Source: Rhizobium sp. Q54
GTDB taxonomy: Bacteria > Pseudomonadota > Alphaproteobacteria > ATCC43930 > CGMCC-115725
NCBI GenBank assembly: GCA_945861155.1
Contig: CAMATN010000008.1
Span: 1 to 64,000 of the forward strand
Length of the DNA stretch: 64,000 nt
Direction: 5' to 3'
A model generated the notes under the pieces. It was not told the origin of the DNA. It ran no database searches and worked only from the letters and a program-made list of their open reading frames with translations. Position numbers and translations under genes: made by a program. This document shows, piece by piece, positions 3,121 through 27,710 of this stretch (position 1 is the stretch's first letter; each line of letters starts with the position of its first letter).

Positions 3121-4311
3121 TTAAGGCCGGCGCAGACTGTGCCGCAGCACGATCGCGGCGCTCAGCAGCACGACCGCGCCGACCTGGTGAGCGACGCCGA
3201 GCGCAACCGGCACGACGAGCACAAGCGTGGCAACCCCAAGCGCGAACTGCAGCATCGCCGCGGCCAGCAGGGCGTGCAGCGCATAGGCGGCCGAGCGCGG
3301 CAACGCGGCCCGCCAGCCCGCCAGCCACAGCAGCAGCACGGCGATGCAAAGCGTCAGCGCCAGCAGACGATGGTTGAACTGCACCGCCGCGACGTTCTCG
3401 AACCAGTTCAGGATGAAGGGCTGCAGCTGGGCGTAGCCGGCCGGCACGACGCGGCCATCCATCAGCGGGAAATTGTTGTAGGTGTGGCCGGCATTCATGC
3501 CCGCGACAAAGCCGCCGGCGACGATCGTCAGCGCGACGAGAATGAGGATCGCCTCCGCCGCACGACGCCAGCCGCCCGCTACCCCCACCCTGCCCTCCCC
3601 CGCTCGGGGGGGAGGGTTCTCTGGGGCCGCCTGCTTTGTTCCCTCCCCCGCAAGCGGGGGAGGGTTAGGGTGGGGGTGTTGCGCTGGGCACCCGGGAAAA
3701 TTGCGCTCGAAAAAGCCCAGCGCGATCCACAACGTCGCCGCGTAGATCGCCAGCGCCAGCACGAGATGGGCGACGAGCCGGTACTGGCTGACCGAGACCC
3801 GGTCGGCCAGGCCGCTCTTGACCATGTACCAGCCGAGCGCGCCCTGCGCGAAGCCGAGCAGGAAAATACCCGACAGCGGCACGACCAGGCGGCGAGGCAT
3901 TTGACGCCGAAGCAGTAAGTAGATGAACGGCAGGGCATAAGCGACGCCGATCAGCCGGCCCCACAGCCGATGCAGATACTCCCACAGATAGATGGTTTTG
4001 AACTCGGCGAGGCTCATTCCGTAATTGAGCAGCCGGTATTGCGCGATCTGCTGGTATTTCTCGAATTCGGCGGCCCAGCCGGCGGCCGACAGCGGCGGCA
4101 GGATGCCGCTCACCGGCTGCCATTCGGTGATCGACAGACCGGAGCGGGTCAGCCGGGTAATGCCGCCGATCGCCACCATCACGAAGATCATGCCGCAGCA
4201 ACACAAGAGCCAATAAGCGATCACCCGCCCCTGCTGGCCCGATGTCGCCGCGGCCGCGGCCGAATTCGCGGCGGCAGGCCGTAATGAGAGAGCGCCCGCG
4301 CCGATCTTCAT
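3121..4311 (-). CDS. ctaA: Heme A synthase (COX15/CtaA family) carrying an in-frame repeat insertion
   Basis: [56 protein letters not shown]. Likely start MKIGAG (the ORF is open from 4362). Confidence 0.9.
3581..3679. repeat. Palindromic repeat family A (CCCTCCCCCGCxxGCGGGGGAGGG) inside heme A synthase CDS
   Basis: acccccaccctgccctcccccgctcggggggg...ccctcccccgcaagcgggggagggttagggtgggggt; same arms at 23812, 41112 and 59341. Confidence 0.85.
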
Positions 4312-15801: not shown

Positions 15802-16962
15802 ATGAATCATATCATTCCGGCATTCCTCGCGATCGGCGCGCTCGCCGTTGCGCCGGCGAAGGCACAAGAATGCGTCAACGCCGATCCATCGTCGGTGCTG
15901 GTGGGGGTCCAGGGAGATTTCGAGATCAGGGTCGACCCGCAGGATCCCGAGGAAAACCTGATCTTTATATCCAATGTCAAGGATGGTGCATCCCAGGTGG
16001 TCGCCGCCAGGGTCGATGGTATAACGGGCCAGGTCATGCCCGGATCGCTCGCCACCGTCGCGAATGATTTTTATGGACAAAAAATTATCAACGGGCCCGA
16101 GTTCGTCCAGAAACCCTCGGGAGAACTCGGTATCGTTTACGCAGGACCTGGCGGCGTTCATGCCGTTTTTCGATCCGCTACCCCAAAGGGATGGAATGCG
16201 TTCAATTTGGATGTTCACGGAGACGTGATCACCAACACCCCTCCGCGGCTTCCGGCGACGAGCGAAGGCGCGTATCCCGCCCCCCCCATACCGCTGGGGC
16301 AGCACACCCACGGGCAATTGCGGGGCGACTGCGCCAGCATATGTTACGGCTCCCTTAGCGAGGGTGTTACGACCGATGTCACAGCCGTGCTGGCGCCGAA
16401 GGGTCTTACGGTCTCGGCCGCGACCCAAAGTCCGACTGACGGCTATATCTATATCAGCGCGTGCAAGGGGCTTTATTCCTGCAATCTTTACGAAGCGCAG
16501 ATCGATGGCGCCGGCGGTTTCGTCCCGAACTCATTTCAAGTTCTCGCCGGGGTAGGCCGGGTCTCGCCGGTATCGATGGCCGCGGCGCGGCACCCGCTGA
16601 CCGGGGCGACGATCCTGTTCTCGAACAGGGGAGCGAATGCAGTGGACGTGTGGGAACAACCCGGCGGCGGCGGCGGCTTGCGGCTGATCCGACGGGTCTC
16701 GGTACCGGGAAACACCCACTACCGCGTCGAGACCGACAGGAATTCGGTCGTGCTGCATTACCTCGTTCGGTCGGGCACGAGCGCCGGTTCCTACACCATC
16801 CCGGTTGCCGCTCCTGGCAGCGTTCTGAATGTGGGAACGAGCAAGAAGGTCACCGACCAAAGTAGCGGCGCGGAAGTTTTCTGGTCGCCGGCCGCGAACA
16901 AGTGGGCGGTCCTGTACCGTTCGTCGGAAGGCGCATTGCGACGCTGTTGGTTCACGCCATAG
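15802..16962 (+). CDS. Secreted hypothetical protein (signal peptide, possible beta-propeller)
   Basis: MNHIIPAFLAIGALAVAPAKAQ signal peptide; AGGAGACCTC RBS; repeated beta-rich segments. Confidence 0.6.
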   Translation: MNHIIPAFLAIGALAVAPAKAQECVNADPSSVLVGVQGDFEIRVDPQDPEENLIFISNVKDGASQVVAARVDGITGQVMPGSLATVANDFYGQKIINGPEFVQKPSGELGIVYAGPGGVHAVFRSATPKGWNAFNLDVHGDVITNTPPRLPATSEGAYPAPPIPLGQHTHGQLRGDCASICYGSLSEGVTTDVTAVLAPKGLTVSAATQSPTDGYIYISACKGLYSCNLYEAQIDGAGGFVPNSFQVLAGVGRVSPVSMAAARHPLTGATILFSNRGANAVDVWEQPGGGGGLRLIRRVSVPGNTHYRVETDRNSVVLHYLVRSGTSAGSYTIPVAAPGSVLNVGTSKKVTDQSSGAEVFWSPAANKWAVLYRSSEGALRRCWFTP

Positions 16963-19015: not shown

Positions 19016-19975
19016 ATGAGCCGGTATCTTCTCAGAAGGCTGGCGATCGCGGTCCCCAGCCTCCTCGGCATCAGCATCGTGCTGTTTAGCGTGCTCGCGC
19101 TGGCGCCCGGCGATCCGTTCGAGGAACTGGCGAGCAATCCCAACGTGCCGCCTGCAGTCGCGGCGTCGCTGCGCACCAAATTCGGCCTCGATGATCCGAT
19201 CATGCTGCGTTACTTGCGCTGGCTGATGGCAATGCTGCAGGGCGATTGGGGTTTTTCGTTTGTCAGCCGGATGGATGTCAGCACCCTGATCCTGCAGCGC
19301 CTGCCGACGACGCTGCTGGTGATCGGCTCGTCGCAGATCCTCGCCTTGGCGGTAGCCTTGCCGGTCGGCGTCCTGTCGGCGACGCGGCCGTATTCGGTCT
19401 TCGATCAAATTGCCAACACGCTGGCGTTTATCGGCTTTTCATTGCCGACATTCTTCACCGGGCTGCTGTTCATCCTGTTGTTCAGCATCACGCTCGATTG
19501 GCTTCCGTTCGTCTATCGCGCCGATCTCGGCGTCACCGGCTGGCGCTGGTATTGGGAGGGCGCACGCCAGGCGGCGATGCCGGTCGCGGTGCTCGGGCTG
19601 TTCCAGGCCGCCTCGTGGACGCGCTTTGTGCGTTCGGCGGTTCTCGACGTGATCCGGCTCGACTATGTCACGACCGCCCGCGCCAAGGGGCTCGCCGAGC
19701 GCGTCGTCATCATCAAGCATGTCGTGCGCAACGCCTTGACCCCGGTGGTGACCTTGGTTGCGCTGCAGATGCCCGCGGTGTTCGGCGGCGCTATCGTGAC
19801 CGAGCAAATCTTCCGCATACCGGGCATCGGATCGCTGCTGATCAGTTCGATGCTCGCCAACGACACACCTGTTATCATGGCGGTGACGTTCGTCCTCGCC
19901 TGTCTTGTGCTCCTTTTCAACCTGATTGCCGACATCCTTTATGGCTGGCTCGACCCTCGTATCGCCTACCGCTGA
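19016..19975 (+). CDS. ABC transporter permease (DppB-like)
   Basis: MSRYLLRRLAIAVPSLLGISIVLFSVLALAPGDPF; EQIFRIPGIGSLLISSMLANDTPVI. Confidence 0.95.
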   Translation: MSRYLLRRLAIAVPSLLGISIVLFSVLALAPGDPFEELASNPNVPPAVAASLRTKFGLDDPIMLRYLRWLMAMLQGDWGFSFVSRMDVSTLILQRLPTTLLVIGSSQILALAVALPVGVLSATRPYSVFDQIANTLAFIGFSLPTFFTGLLFILLFSITLDWLPFVYRADLGVTGWRWYWEGARQAAMPVAVLGLFQAASWTRFVRSAVLDVIRLDYVTTARAKGLAERVVIIKHVVRNALTPVVTLVALQMPAVFGGAIVTEQIFRIPGIGSLLISSMLANDTPVIMAVTFVLACLVLLFNLIADILYGWLDPRIAYR

Positions 19976-20886: not shown

Positions 20887-21867
20887 GTGGCGACGCCCGG
20901 CCGCGAGCCTCTGCTGGAAATCCGCGGCCTGAAGGTGCATTTCGCCACCGATGACGGCATGGTCCGTGCGGTCGATGGCGTCGATCTGACCGTTCATGCC
21001 GGCGAGACGCTCGGGATCGTCGGCGAATCCGGGTGCGGCAAGACCGTCACCGCGCTCTCCGTGCTCAAGCTGATCGCGATGCCGCCGGCCCGCATCGTCG
21101 CCGGCCAGATCCTGTGGCAAGGCCGCGATCTGGTGCCGCTCGGAACCGGGGAGATGCGCCGCATCCGCAGCAAGGAAATCGGCATCGTCTTTCAGGAGCC
21201 GATGACCTCGCTCAACCCGGTCTACAATGTCGGCGAGCAGATCGCGGAGACAATCCGGGAGCATGAGGGGCTGGGCCGCCGGGGAGCCCTGGAACGCGCC
21301 ATAGAGATGCTCCGGCTGGTGAACATCCCGAACCCCGAACGGCGGGTGCGCGATTACCCGCACCAGTTTTCCGGCGGCATGCGTCAGCGCGTGATGATCG
21401 CGATGGCCTTGTCATGCAATCCCAAGCTGCTGATCGCCGACGAGCCGACCACCGCGCTGGATGTGACCATTCAGGCCCAGATCCTCGAATTGCTCGCCGA
21501 GATGAAGGCGCGCCTGGGGATGGCGGTCATGCTGATCACCCATGCGATGGGGGTCGTCGCCGAAGTGGCGCAGCGGGTGGCGGTCATGTACGCCGGCAAG
21601 GTCGTCGAGGAGGCGTCCGTCGCCGAACTCTTCAGCCGGCCCCGGCATCCTTACACGCAGGGGTTGATCCGCTCGATCCCGCGTGTCGACCGAGCCGGCC
21701 GCAAGACCCGTTTGGCGGCGATCGCCGGGGTCGTGCCGAGCCTGCTGGACCCGCCCCCGGGATGTCGCTTCGCGCCGCGCTGCGAGTTTGTCAGAGCAGA
21801 ATGCACGGCCGCGATTCCGCCGCTTCGCGAGGTTGCGCCCGGCCATAAGGTCGCCTGCGTGCTATGA
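20887..21867 (+). CDS. Oligopeptide ABC transporter ATP-binding protein (DppD-like)
   Basis: Walker [44 protein letters not shown]. Confidence 0.95.
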
Positions 21868-22880
21868 ACGCCGCCGGGAGCGCCGCCTCGGATGACGCCG
21901 GGGACGTCGCGCCAACCAAGGAGCTGCTGCGGGTCAAAGACCTCGTCAAGTATTTTCCGATCAAGCGCGGGCTGCTGTCGCGCGCGGTCGAACGGGTGCA
22001 CGCGGTCGATGGGGTCAGCTTCACGATCGGTCCCGGCGAAACGTTGGGTCTGGTCGGCGAGTCGGGCTGCGGCAAATCCACGACTGGGCGCTGCATCCTG
22101 CGGCTGATCGAGCCGACATCCGGCGAGGTATGGTTCGCGGGCAAGAGCGTCACGGCGCTTTCCGGCAGGGAGCTCAGGGCGCTGTGCCGCGACATGCAGA
22201 TCATCTTTCAAGATCCCTACGCCTCGCTCAACCCGCGCCTGCCGGTCGGCGCGATCGTCGGCGAGGCGCTGATCATCCACAATCTCACCAAGAGCGGCCG
22301 GGAATTCGAGGAGCGGGTGGTCGAACTGCTCGAAACCGTCGGCCTCAACGCCGACCACATGCGGCGCTATCCGCATGAATTCTCCGGCGGCCAGCGGCAA
22401 CGGATCGGGATTGCCCGCGCCCTCGCGGTATCGCCGAAGCTGATCGTCTGCGACGAGCCGGTATCGGCGCTCGATGTGTCGATTCAGGCGCAGGTCATCA
22501 ACCTGCTCGAGGATCTGCAGCAGCAGTTCGGTCTTTCCTATCTGTTCATCGCGCACGATTTGTCGGTGGTCGAGCATATCAGCACGCGCGTCGCGGTCAT
22601 GTATCTGGGCCGCATCGTCGAGACGGCGGCGGCCGAGGACCTCTACAACGCGCCGCTGCATCCCTATACCCAGGCGCTGCTGTCGGCCGTGCCGATCCCG
22701 GACCCGGCAGCAAAGCGCGGGCGCATCATGTTGCAGGGCGATGTGCCGAACCCGATCCATCCGCCGTCCGGCTGCCATTTCCATACGCGTTGCCCAAAGG
22801 CGATGGCGCATTGCGCGGTCAAGACTCCGATCGCCAAGGAGATGGCCCCGGGCCACGTCGTCGCCTGCCATTTGTATTGA
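21864..22880 (+). CDS. Oligopeptide ABC transporter ATP-binding protein (DppF-like)
   Basis: Walker [45 protein letters not shown]. Confidence 0.95.
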
Positions 22881-22957
22881 GCGAGGGCCGACCGGAACCG
22901 GGCCGGAGCGGTTCTCGTTCACCGCGGCAGAGTGCCTTTGCCGAATGGGTGCGCGAT

Positions 22958-23797
22958 ATGCCGTATTCCGCCGAGATCAGCCGCGACAACCGAACCGCTT
23001 TTCTATTCGTGATCGATCAATCCGGCTCGATGGACGAGCGTCCCGAAGGGGGCCGGATGAAGTCGGAATTCGTCGCCGACGTCCTGAACAAGACCGTCTA
23101 CACGCTGGTCACCAACTGCTCGAAAGCCGACGGAATCCGCAATTATTTCGATGTCGGCGTGATCGGCTATAGTGGGGCGGGCGTCGCGAACGGCCTGGGC
23201 GGCGCTCTGGAATCAGGCGCGATGCACCCGATTTCGGCGCTTGCCGAATCGCCGCTGCGCGTCGAGGAACGGGTCCGCGCGGTCGATGACGGCGCCGGCG
23301 GCATCGTCGAGCAGAAGACCAAATTCCCGGTCTGGTTCGAGCCCCGCAACGAGGGCGGCACGCCGATGCGGGCGGCGCTGACCCGGGCGGCCGAGCTGAT
23401 GGCCGAATGGTGCGATGCGCACCCCGATTGCTATCCGCCGACAATCCTGCACGTGACCGACGGGGAGGCGACCGACGGCAACCCCGAAGATGTCGCCGAC
23501 GCGCTGCACCAACTGCACACTGCCGACGGGCAAAGCCTTTTGTTCAACCTTCACGTCACGACCAAGGGCGGGCGCGAAATCATCTTCCCCGGCGGCGATG
23601 ACGGTCTCGTCGACGATTACGCGCGGATGCTGTACCGCATGTCGAGCGCGCTGCCGCCGCATCTGGCCAAGATCGCCGGCGACAAGGGGTATTCGATCGC
23701 GTCGGGCTCGCGCGGCTTCATCTTCAACGCCGATCCGAAGCTGATCGTCGATTTCTTCGATATCGGCACGCGCCCGCGCATGGTCGCAGACCGCTAG
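22958..23797 (+). CDS. vWA domain protein (TerY-like, member of TerY-P triad)
   Basis: RTAFLFVIDQSGSMDE (MIDAS DxSxS); PTILHVTDGEATDGNPEDVADALHQL. Confidence 0.9.
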   Translation: MPYSAEISRDNRTAFLFVIDQSGSMDERPEGGRMKSEFVADVLNKTVYTLVTNCSKADGIRNYFDVGVIGYSGAGVANGLGGALESGAMHPISALAESPLRVEERVRAVDDGAGGIVEQKTKFPVWFEPRNEGGTPMRAALTRAAELMAEWCDAHPDCYPPTILHVTDGEATDGNPEDVADALHQLHTADGQSLLFNLHVTTKGGREIIFPGGDDGLVDDYARMLYRMSSALPPHLAKIAGDKGYSIASGSRGFIFNADPKLIVDFFDIGTRPRMVADR

Positions 23798-23811
23798 GTT
23801 CCGCGGTGTCA

Positions 23812-23930
23812 ACCCCCACCCTCCCACGCCTCGCGGCGCGGGTCCCTCCCTCCCCCGCTTGCGGGGGAGGGTCTTTCAGAGCACGGCGAACTCCCTCCCC
23901 CGCAAGCGGGGGAGGGTTGGGGTGGGGGTC
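23812..23930. repeat. Palindromic repeat family A between vWA and PP2C genes
   Basis: aacccccaccctcccacgcc...ctccctcccccgcaagcgggggagggttggggtgggggt. Confidence 0.85.
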
Positions 23931-23960
23931 ACCCGGCGCCCTCTTTGCCAGTTCCGATCT

Positions 23961-24728
23961 GTGCTGGTAGAGCCCACGGCGGCGCCGCAGCTTTTCGCCC
24001 GACCGCGCGCCTTTACCATTGCGAAACGGCCGGGAGAGACCAACGAGGATGCGTGGCAGCATTCGCACAAGGGCGCCGGGGCGGTCAGCGATGGCGCCTC
24101 AGTGTCGTTCGATTCGGCGGCGTGGTCGCGCCTACTGGTGCGGCGCTTCGCGCAACACCCGCATTTCGACGAATCGTGGCTGGCCGAGGCGATCGCCGCC
24201 TATGCCACACTGCACGATCGCGACAGCCTTCCCTGGATGCAGCAGGCCGCCTTCGATCGCGGCAGCTTTGCCTCGCTGATCGGAGTGACGGATCGGGGCG
24301 GCGGGCGGATCGGGCTGCTGGCGATCGGCGACAGCCTGGCCCTGCTCTGCGACGGCGACCGCATCGTCGATTCCTTCCCCTACCAGGCGCCGGAGCAGTT
24401 CGACGCCGACCCCCAGCTGCTGTCGACCAACACATCCGAAAACGCGTTTCTCAAAGACCCCGAGCGCGCCTCCGAACTGTCGCGGGAATGGGATCTGGGG
24501 CCGCTCGTCGATCCGGCGCTGCTCTGCGTCACCGATGCGCTGGGTCGCTGGATCCTGACCGAGCGCGAGCGAGATTCCTCGCCGATCGCGCTGTTGCGCG
24601 CTGTCGCATCGCGGCGCGCCTTCGCGCGCCTTGTCGAGGAGGAGCGCATGGCGGGCCGGATGCGCCGCGACGACACGACATTGCTCGCGTATTGGGATTG
24701 GTCGCCTGGGGATAGGTCGGGGGAATAG
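23961..24728 (+). CDS. PP2C-family serine/threonine phosphatase (TerY-P triad)
   Basis: NEDAW, GAVSDGASVS, LLAIGDSLALL, LLCVTDALGRW, RDDTTLLAYWDW: PP2C metal-binding motifs. GTG start proposed at 23961. Confidence 0.85.
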   Translation: MLVEPTAAPQLFARPRAFTIAKRPGETNEDAWQHSHKGAGAVSDGASVSFDSAAWSRLLVRRFAQHPHFDESWLAEAIAAYATLHDRDSLPWMQQAAFDRGSFASLIGVTDRGGGRIGLLAIGDSLALLCDGDRIVDSFPYQAPEQFDADPQLLSTNTSENAFLKDPERASELSREWDLGPLVDPALLCVTDALGRWILTERERDSSPIALLRAVASRRAFARLVEEERMAGRMRRDDTTLLAYWDWSPGDRSGE

Positions 24729-24737
24729 GGGTCGGGA

Positions 24738-26219
24738 ATGCAGCCGCTGACGCCCTACCCGCAAATCGTCGAATACAACGAGGCGGTGCAACACCCCTCG
24801 ACCGCGTTCCGCGACCCCGAGCTGCGGCAAGGCCAGGTCAAGCTCAACGCGCTTGGGCTGCCGGTCGCGCTGTCGGGCGGTTTCGCGCTGACTTATCCGA
24901 TGATGACGGGCGCCAAGGCGAAGGGGCGCAAGCTGGCGGTGCGCTGCTTTCACCGCGAGATTCCGGCGGCACAGCACAAATATGCGGCGATCGCCCGCGC
25001 GGTAACAGCGCTGCGAAGCCCGTACTTCGTCGGTTTCGATTATCTCGCCGACGGCATCAAGATCCGCGGCGGCTTCTATCCGGTCCTCAAGATGGACTGG
25101 GCCGAGGGCGACCCGCTCGGCGTCTGGCTCGACCGCAACAGCGGCGACCGGCGCGCCCTCGAAAAATTGCGCGAGCAGTTCGCCGCGCTCGCCGCCTTCC
25201 TCGAAAAGTACGGTATCGCGCATGGCGACATCCAGACCGGCAACGTCATAATCTCGGCGGCGGGGCTGAAGCTGGTCGATTATGACGGGGTGTTCGTGCC
25301 GGGCATGCCGGCTGCGTTCGGCAGCGAGACCGGGCACAAGCATTTTCAGCACCCAAGCCGCGCCCCGGCGCATTTCGGCCCGGCCATCGACCGGTTCTCG
25401 TTGATCGCGGTCGATCTGAGCCTCGCCGCGCTGATCGCGGTGCCGTCGCTGCATCGGCGGTTTCGGCAGGGCGGCGAGACGATCCTCTTTCGCGCCAGGG
25501 ATTTTGTCGATCCCGACCGCTCCGAATTGTTCGGCTTACTCCAGCAACATGCCGCGCTGCACCAGACCGCGGAGAATTTCGCGGCGATCTGCCGGGCCGA
25601 TTTCGGCGCGGTGCCGAGCCTTGGCGACTTCCGGGCCGGTCGGAATATCCCGCAGCCGGCTTCAGGCTCGCCTGTCGCGGCTCCGGCATCGCGGTCCCGA
25701 ACGCAAACCACCGCGCCGCGGCCGCCGAAGGCACAACATTGGCGTTTCTGGCCGGCCCTCCGCCATGGCGACAGCCAGCCGGCTCCTGCGCCCACACCGA
25801 TTCGCGCCGAAACAGCGCCGGGACCAGGCAGATCGAACCGCCACCTGGTCGCTCGTCTGCTCGCCGAGCCCCGCGCGAATCCCGGTACGTCGCGCACGAC
25901 GCCAACGCCGCGGCGGCCGGATGGCGCACAGTCCGCCGCCGATCTGGCGGCCCTTCGGTCCCCCCGGAGCAACCGAGACATCGTGCGCACGCTGCGCCCA
26001 ACCGCCGTCGCGCCAATTCCCTCGGCCCCAATTCCCTCGGCCCCCCGGACCCCGGCGTCCGTGCGTCCGCATTCGGCATCGCCGGCGCCGATGCCGCGGT
26101 CCGGCTCGGTCGTCATCCACCCGCACAACCGGGTGGCTCCGCCATCGCCCTCGGCCGCGGCGGAACAATCGCCGACCCTGCTGCGCCGCGTGTTGCGGGC
26201 GATCGGCGTCGACCACTGA
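24738..26219 (+). CDS. Protein kinase-like protein (TerY-P triad) with long proline-rich tail
   Basis: LAVRCFHREIP; AHGDIQTGNVIISAAGLKLVDYDGVFVPGM kinase catalytic and metal-binding loops; disordered Pro-rich C-terminus. Confidence 0.85.
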   Translation: MQPLTPYPQIVEYNEAVQHPSTAFRDPELRQGQVKLNALGLPVALSGGFALTYPMMTGAKAKGRKLAVRCFHREIPAAQHKYAAIARAVTALRSPYFVGFDYLADGIKIRGGFYPVLKMDWAEGDPLGVWLDRNSGDRRALEKLREQFAALAAFLEKYGIAHGDIQTGNVIISAAGLKLVDYDGVFVPGMPAAFGSETGHKHFQHPSRAPAHFGPAIDRFSLIAVDLSLAALIAVPSLHRRFRQGGETILFRARDFVDPDRSELFGLLQQHAALHQTAENFAAICRADFGAVPSLGDFRAGRNIPQPASGSPVAAPASRSRTQTTAPRPPKAQHWRFWPALRHGDSQPAPAPTPIRAETAPGPGRSNRHLVARLLAEPRANPGTSRTTPTPRRPDGAQSAADLAALRSPRSNRDIVRTLRPTAVAPIPSAPIPSAPRTPASVRPHSASPAPMPRSGSVVIHPHNRVAPPSPSAAAEQSPTLLRRVLRAIGVDH

Positions 26220-26264: not shown

Positions 26265-27710
26265 CTAAGGGCCGTCGACGCGAACCGTGCCGGCAAAGCG
26301 CGACGGCGCGCGCAGCCACGCACCCGCTTCGGCGCCGCGCCCCGCCGGCCGGGCCTGCCAGGCGCCGCGCCGAAGCTGCTCCTCGAGTTCCCAGCGCAGC
26401 AGCGCCAGACGGGCGTGCATCGTCGACGCGACGATGGCCGCGACCGCCGGCGCGCCGGGTAGCGCCAGAGCTTGCGCCGCATGCCGGACGCACAGCCCGT
26501 AACCGCCTTCGAACGCGCGGCGCCCGTCCGTATCTTCGAGCAGCGCCGCCAGCAGCAGGACGGCGCGCTCGCCCGCCTCGCGCGCCCGCCGGCAAAGCGG
26601 GCATTCCCGGCCGCGTTGCAGCGAATCCAGCACCGCGATGCGCGATCCCGAGCTTGGCCACATGCTTGACCACGCGCGCTGAACGGCCGGCGGGACAATC
26701 GCGGCCCCTCGCCCGAGCTCGCGCGCTTTGCCGGCATAGACCAGCCGCTCCTCGGCCTCGCCCACCACCACTGCCGCGAGCGCCGGCGCGAGAATCGCCC
26801 CGCCGGCGACACGCGCCTGCCAAACGTGATGGCGGCACAGCGGCAACACGTCCGAGAGATCGCCCTGCGCTGCGGCCGCCCGCGCGAGCCAGCCAAGCCA
26901 TGCTCCGCAGGAATCGGATATTTCGGCGCAGATCGCGCACGAATCCATATGTCGCAAGCGACGGCGCATGCGCCGAACCGGGTCGGGATCGTCGCCGAAC
27001 GGGGCGCCGTGGCGCTCCGGCGCCAGCAGGTCGCGCCGCTCGGGAGGGCCGAGGATCACCCGGATGGCGCGATCGGCCGGGGTCTCGGCGCAGGCCGGCG
27101 CCGGGGCGCCGGCGAGGGTTTCACCGAGCGCCGCCACGGTGCGACCATGGATCGCGAGAACGCCCGCAATCGTGCCGGCGTCGAGGTATCCGGCGAGCTG
27201 CTTGAGATGCGGCATGCACACGAGCGCCGGATTGCCGTAGCAATCGGGCCGCCGCGCCCCGATCAGCAGAGCCAGAAAAAAGCACTCGCGCCGTTCGACA
27301 TCGCGCGCCTGCGCGCAGGCCTCGCACGCATCGGGTGCGGCGACGAGCGGGGCCGGCTTTCCGCGACCATGCCGCCCGGCGAGTCGCGGCAAGACGTCCC
27401 GGATCAGCGCGAGGTGGATCAGCGCGACCGTCGCGCTCTGTCCGATCGTTTCGAGGCGGCGCGCATGGTGCGCGCAGAAGCCCGCGCCGCGCGCCACTTC
27501 CCGCATCGGCTCGCGCTCTTGCCAACCCTCATAGAGAAAATGATCGAGCCAGCGCTCATCCGCCCCGGCGGCGCGGGTGCAGACCGGGCAAGCCTCGCGG
27601 GTCAACGCCGCTTCGAGGTCGCCCATCCCGGCGGCCGGATCGGGCCGCCGACCACTCATCCGGGGCCGCCACCGCCCGAGAGTAGCCGCGAGGTCGCTCC
27701 AAATCGTCAT
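26265..27710 (-). CDS. Cys-rich protein with four CxxC...CxxH zinc-knuckle-like modules
   Basis: CPVCTRA...FCAHH; CEACAQA...LVCMPH; CAICAEI...LCRHH; CPLCRRA...LCVRH. Confidence 0.7.
   Translation of the reverse strand: MTIWSDLAATLGRWRPRMSGRRPDPAAGMGDLEAALTREACPVCTRAAGADERWLDHFLYEGWQEREPMREVARGAGFCAHHARRLETIGQSATVALIHLALIRDVLPRLAGRHGRGKPAPLVAAPDACEACAQARDVERRECFFLALLIGARRPDCYGNPALVCMPHLKQLAGYLDAGTIAGVLAIHGRTVAALGETLAGAPAPACAETPADRAIRVILGPPERRDLLAPERHGAPFGDDPDPVRRMRRRLRHMDSCAICAEISDSCGAWLGWLARAAAAQGDLSDVLPLCRHHVWQARVAGGAILAPALAAVVVGEAEERLVYAGKARELGRGAAIVPPAVQRAWSSMWPSSGSRIAVLDSLQRGRECPLCRRAREAGERAVLLLAALLEDTDGRRAFEGGYGLCVRHAAQALALPGAPAVAAIVASTMHARLALLRWELEEQLRRGAWQARPAGRGAEAGAWLRAPSRFAGTVRVDGP

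Follow-up and report, generated by a model that had tools for sequence, protein, structure and literature searches.

The three consecutive genes at positions 22,958 to 26,219 of the window, i.e., the 64,000-nucleotide stretch of Rhizobium sp. Q54 DNA analysed here, constitute, as judged from profile matches of the predicted proteins, a TerY-P-type system of the stand-alone kind. The triad is filed as an OB-less form and not as the OB type itself because its kinase has no C-terminal OB fold. With somewhat better than even confidence, it is read as a free-standing anti-phage module working as a phosphorylation switch from which OB-based sensing has been lost. The family is already known and the locus is a modest OB-less variant of it; the preliminary description had considered the system under-described, a view that could not be upheld as the stand-alone STK_OB-type triad has been described (PMC11090510) and NCBI names members, the E. 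coli homologues among them, 'TerY-P anti-phage system'. Two features go beyond that description, namely a repeat pair between the first two genes and the absence of a C-terminal domain from the kinase.

Gene content and assignment of the triad

The features of the locus are collected in Table 1. The vWA, PP2C and kinase reading frames are all open and follow each other on the forward strand, as first described.

Table 1. Features of the TerY-P-type triad, in positions of the window
Feature	Coordinates	Strand	Size, character and basis
vWA gene, TerY-type	22958..23797 (ATG to stop)	+	279 aa; PADLOC PDLC02224
REPIN-like inverted pair	23848..23916	.	inverted-repeat detection, exact-copy count in genome
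PP2C phosphatase gene	23961..24728	+	about 255 aa; PADLOC PDLC02222
Kinase domain, residues 1-305	24738..25652	+	PADLOC PDLC02223, AlphaFold2, Foldseek
Kinase tail, residues 306-493	25653..26219	+	disordered, Pro/Ala/Arg-rich; tblastn, pLDDT

The earlier TerY-P assignment is confirmed by the PADLOC TerY-P models, which give strong matches in the order TerY, PP2C, STK_OB on one strand: the TerY model to the vWA protein (E=1.9e-130, positions 1-273 of 277), the PP2C model to the phosphatase (E=8e-73) and the STK_OB model to the kinase (E=1.6e-111, model positions 2-315 of 562). The fold check by Pfam suggested earlier was of limited help, with the matches for vWA, PP2C and kinase all below the gathering cut-off, and the assignment is carried by the PADLOC models; the kinase fold was obtained with AlphaFold2 and Foldseek.

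In the vWA protein, DQSGSM is found at residues 20-25, GGTPM at 133 and VTDGEATD at 166. The MIDAS is intact, as had been claimed, with DxSxS, T and D complete and invariant in an alignment of 10 homologues; identity to the Sinorhizobium and Agrobacterium TerY proteins is 62%. The PP2C frame is open from TTG 23859, and the likely start is GTG 23961, giving 255 aa, preferred because 23859-23916 falls inside the repeat. The metal-binding motifs reported for this protein are all there (SDG, GDS, TDA, DD), as is NED, and D30, D44, G45, D124, D192, D237 and D238 are invariant in the alignment of 10 homologues.

Kinase core

The kinase gene extends from ATG 24738 to a stop at 26219 and encodes 493 aa. 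The AlphaFold2 model is confident for the kinase domain to about residue 309, and its best Foldseek matches are PknA and PknB (E=4e-9), by which the kinase fold is confirmed for the predicted structure. Both HGDIQTGN (162) and LVDYDG (179) are present as described, but they are not unusual, since the HGD and DYD signatures are family-wide. The catalytic Asp of HGD, the Asn and the metal-binding Asp of DYD (181-183) are retained, and HGD, N and DYD are invariant or nearly so among the kinase homologues.

The beta-3 Lys position is occupied by Arg69. Arginine is found there in 14 of 15 family kinases, the window protein included, and Lys only in an Armatimonadota kinase (L009). The closest solved relative by sequence profile is PKR (E=6.6e-6); in the alignment Arg69 sits on the PKR beta-3 Lys, where one PKR entry itself has Arg. 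In the same alignment, no acidic residue is conserved among the TerY-P kinases where the alpha-C Glu would be expected. Exchange of the beta-3 Lys for Arg is the standard kinase-dead mutation. Because of this arginine, kinase activity cannot be assumed from sequence for the family, and that of the window protein is not certain.

Kinase tail and probable loss of the OB fold

The kinases of the relatives carry an OB fold, then a disordered stretch and then a C-terminal transmembrane or amphipathic helix, and the disordered stretch usually contains two copies of an N-[QRK]-x-[ILVA]-[LVAM]-x-x-[LIM] motif. Of the 562 positions of the STK_OB model, none beyond 315 is matched by the window kinase. 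A tblastn search with three OB tails as queries revealed no OB fold sequence in any frame of the window, by which a frameshift or misassembly hiding the OB fold was rejected. In the AlphaFold2 model, pLDDT is below 50 over tail residues 310-478 and a short C-terminal helix is formed by residues 480-490. Residues 306-493 contain no cysteine by composition and no folded domain in the model, and no transmembrane helix is found in the kinase. The GC content at codon positions 1/2/3 is 0.73/0.71/0.77 in the tail versus 0.69/0.46/0.84 in the kinase domain.

In the tree, the window kinase groups with OB-bearing alphaproteobacterial kinases (support 86/97, not starred); the OB fold was therefore probably lost secondarily. 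Other OB-less kinases of the family occur in Armatimonadota (L009, L025, L026) and Acaryochloris (L013), and those of L009 and L013 adjoin intact TerY genes. The genome of L025 and L026 holds three divergent TerY-P kinases, two of which continue, in place of the OB fold, into a long C-terminal region with hydrophobic segments that probably span the membrane. In a Methylobacteriaceae MAG, a TerY-P kinase (L027, G1086:C150, 2-1168) has an OB fold and one tail motif, followed at its end by an apparent extra small domain, read by eye, for which Pfam gave no match.

Two NRxxVxxL segments of the window tail, at residues 367 and 412, resemble the motif of the relatives. A broad class pattern drawn with the window in view was matched in 0 of 20000 shuffles, and a matrix built from the relatives only gave P of about 0.08 on the window tail. 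The correspondence of the pair to the doubled tail motif is suggestive at the sequence level, and a firmer claim is withheld because the statistics vary with how the pattern is drawn.

Repeat pair between the vWA and PP2C genes

In most homologous loci, the vWA gene overlaps the PP2C gene or almost abuts it. Here they are split by two 24-nt palindromic copies of CCCTCCCCCGCTTGCGGGGGAGGG, inverted and 21 nt apart. The Rhizobium sp. Q54 genome has 132 exact copies of this sequence, many as inverted pairs with similar spacing, and by this pattern the pair is a REPIN-like element inserted between the two genes. Genomic inverted pairs of CCCTCCCCCGCTTGCGGGGGAGGG lie about 45-50 bp apart, and a further copy is located at 3641-3664.

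Distribution and gene neighbourhoods

Homologous triads were found in Sinorhizobium, Agrobacterium, E. coli, a betaproteobacterium, Armatimonadota and cyanobacterial plasmids. The kinase is rare, being present in about 1% or fewer of the sampled genomes. At a threshold of E<=1e-20 for the kinase model, matches were obtained in 2/385 genomes of the class, 3/399 of the phylum, 3/398 of the Sinorhizobium family and 1/39 of the same family, that one being the window's own genome; none was found in the sampled genomes of its genus. Most of the triad is present in only 4 of 5426 E. coli genomes. The triad is an accessory gene set.

Co-occurrence of the three genes elsewhere, which the preliminary description had proposed to check, was observed at nine other loci with the order TerY-PP2C-kinase on one strand, a count including one locus (L008) whose kinase is cut by a contig end. 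In E. coli, the triads are flanked on one side by a YagK/YfjJ-domain gene region and on the other by type I RM genes. One triad (L015 in G075) directly follows SIR2 and HerA defence genes on the same strand, and a large serine recombinase lies at a distance of a few kb; that of Sinorhizobium (L006) adjoins a type IIG restriction-methyltransferase and a DUF4062 gene, and that of Agrobacterium (L007) a resolvase. Judged by gene content, these neighbourhoods support a defence role for the family, to which the neighbours in the window add nothing. In E. coli 2EC1 (L018), owing to an IS3-family element and a deletion, all that remains of a TerY-P kinase by the type I RM genes is its OB end.

Phage or plasmid carriage was rejected: no phage record with the system was found, and carriage amounts to two cyanobacterial plasmids and one viral contig, whose OB-type kinase is complete. 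The GC content of the triad is 0.68; in this value and in codon-position GC it resembles the window as well as oppD/oppF, and the window has no tRNA genes; a recent foreign island was rejected on these grounds.

The immediate neighbours are metabolic (opp transporter, ilvD, AMP ligase) and do not form a defence island. Upstream lies an oligopeptide ABC transporter (SBP at 16829, permeases at 19016 and 19926, oppD at 20887, oppF at 21864-22880), and the vWA gene starts 77 bp past the oppF end on the same strand (22880 to 22958). Downstream, convergent to the triad and followed by ilvD, a DUF6062 gene (26265-27710, reverse strand) encodes 481 aa with several CxxC/CxxH clusters. This Cys-rich gene had been put forward as a possible partner, which was not substantiated: no sign of membership was seen, no DUF6062-type gene was seen beside other triads, and no homologue was found in 10 relatives by a search run without a positive control. 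A conserved linkage of the triad to opp or ilvD was rejected by synteny. No triad is present in the 16 kb read around the closest same-genus opp operon (G027, 65-80% protein identity) or beside the ilvD orthologues of five relatives, and no opp genes are found beside five homologous triads (L006, L007, L010, L014, L015).

Comparison with known systems

TerY-P was described by Anantharaman et al. 2012 (cited in PMC11090510), and Gao et al. 2020 reportedly demonstrated anti-phage activity for its stand-alone form, whose kinase carries a fused OB fold (PMC7699616, PMC11090510). The STK_OB-type triad corresponds to this stand-alone system, and nucleic-acid binding by the kinase has been tentatively surmised from its OB fold (PMC11090510). 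In P. aeruginosa, TerY-P gives protection and most infected cells survive (PMC10889362).

With stand-alone TerY-P (Gao et al. 2020; PADLOC), the window triad shares the three proteins, their order and strand, and ter genes are not required in either. The preliminary description had called the triad an orphan: ter genes are indeed not recognised nearby, but this is the normal state because stand-alone TerY-P works without terC, terD or terZ. Unlike that system, the window kinase has neither OB fold nor transmembrane helix, a repeat pair separates TerY and PP2C, and the locus is outside a defence island. The CoCoNuT type II/III-A and Ter-stress TerY-P triads also combine a TerY vWA protein with PP2C and kinase (Anantharaman et al. 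2012; PMC11090510). However, their kinases end in a zinc ribbon, which the window tail lacks, and they sit with McrBC-like or ter genes, none of which was seen among the near neighbours here; no McrBC or CoCoNuT names occur among the PADLOC matches of the window at 1e-10. In KKP, a kinase is likewise balanced by a phosphatase, with phosphatase inhibition as a possible trigger, and it provides a tested precedent for phage inhibition of a phosphatase (PMC11341870). In contrast to the window triad, KKP has two kinases and no vWA protein; the likeness would be that of a functional analogue.

Proposed mechanism and alternatives

The analysis establishes the gene content and homology of the locus, its active-site residues, the kinase fold and the missing OB fold. 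From these we infer kinase activity, direction of signalling, trigger and function in Rhizobium sp. Q54 as follows. The kinase-fold protein would be the output enzyme. At rest, the PP2C protein would keep the kinase or its substrates dephosphorylated, and the MIDAS vWA protein may serve as a divalent-metal-dependent adaptor or substrate joining the two. Phage infection would tip the kinase-phosphatase balance, e.g., if the phosphatase is inhibited by a phage protein, as in the analogous KKP, and the resulting phosphorylation would block phage growth. Nucleic-acid sensing by the window kinase itself has probably gone with the OB fold, hence the trigger would have to enter elsewhere, the candidates being the vWA protein, the PP2C protein and the kinase tail.

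Signalling in stress or in phage defence had been suggested without a choice between them. Phage defence is favoured because the family has been phage-tested (PMC7699616, PMC10889362) and homologous loci adjoin defence genes; the stress reading survives as a rival. The anti-phage switch is weakened by the metabolic neighbourhood, by the absence of the OB fold characteristic of the stand-alone type that has been tested, by Arg at the beta-3 Lys position and by the repeat pair that breaks the usual tight vWA-PP2C spacing.

The main rival to the phosphorylation switch is a decaying TerY-P copy, in which OB loss and REPIN insertion are signs of a system being lost, with phage sensing gone. The missing OB fold, which the tree makes a probable secondary loss, the low-complexity tail with little codon-position signal, the splitting of vWA and PP2C and the lack of defence neighbours all fit such a course, and the E. 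coli 2EC1 remnant reveals that it occurs in the family. Nevertheless, none of the three reading frames is interrupted, all the active-site residues checked are intact, codon-position GC is normal in vWA, PP2C and kinase domain, and OB-less kinases stand beside intact TerY in Armatimonadota (L009) and Acaryochloris (L013). Decay is considered rather unlikely.

Less probable still is a signalling module for stress or metal (tellurite, oxidative or DNA stress) that is not primarily anti-phage, the role originally put forward for TerY-P. TerY-P is reportedly tied to tellurite resistance and a metal-sensing phosphorylation switch has been hypothesised (Anantharaman et al. 2012, cited in PMC11090510). 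The vWA MIDAS binds divalent metal and the locus is outside a defence island. Nonetheless, no ter gene was recognised among the near neighbours or the 25 of 50 window Pfam families listed, and stand-alone OB-type relatives protect against phage and adjoin restriction and SIR2-HerA genes. Defence is also favoured over a housekeeping stress response because presence is sparse. A local regulator phosphorylating or controlling the upstream Opp/Dpp peptide transporter, perhaps co-transcribed with it, is suggested by the same strand and the 77-bp distance to oppF but is highly improbable given the closest same-genus opp operon without a nearby triad and the five triads without adjacent opp genes.

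Implications

As an 'orphan' the locus is ordinary; as a natural domain-loss test it is moderately useful, an OB-less triad provided by nature being a ready-made test of the need for the OB domain. We only tentatively consider a functional OB-less TerY-P in which the OB fold is dispensable, the trigger comes via the vWA protein or the phosphatase, and signalling throughout the family passes through an atypical kinase core with Arg at the beta-3 Lys position. If such a form is functional, the OB fold would be dispensable in TerY-P and the trigger would run through the vWA or phosphatase protein. The near family-wide Lys-to-Arg exchange, at the usual site of kinase-dead controls, asks whether these proteins are active kinases and, if so, by what ATP-binding chemistry.
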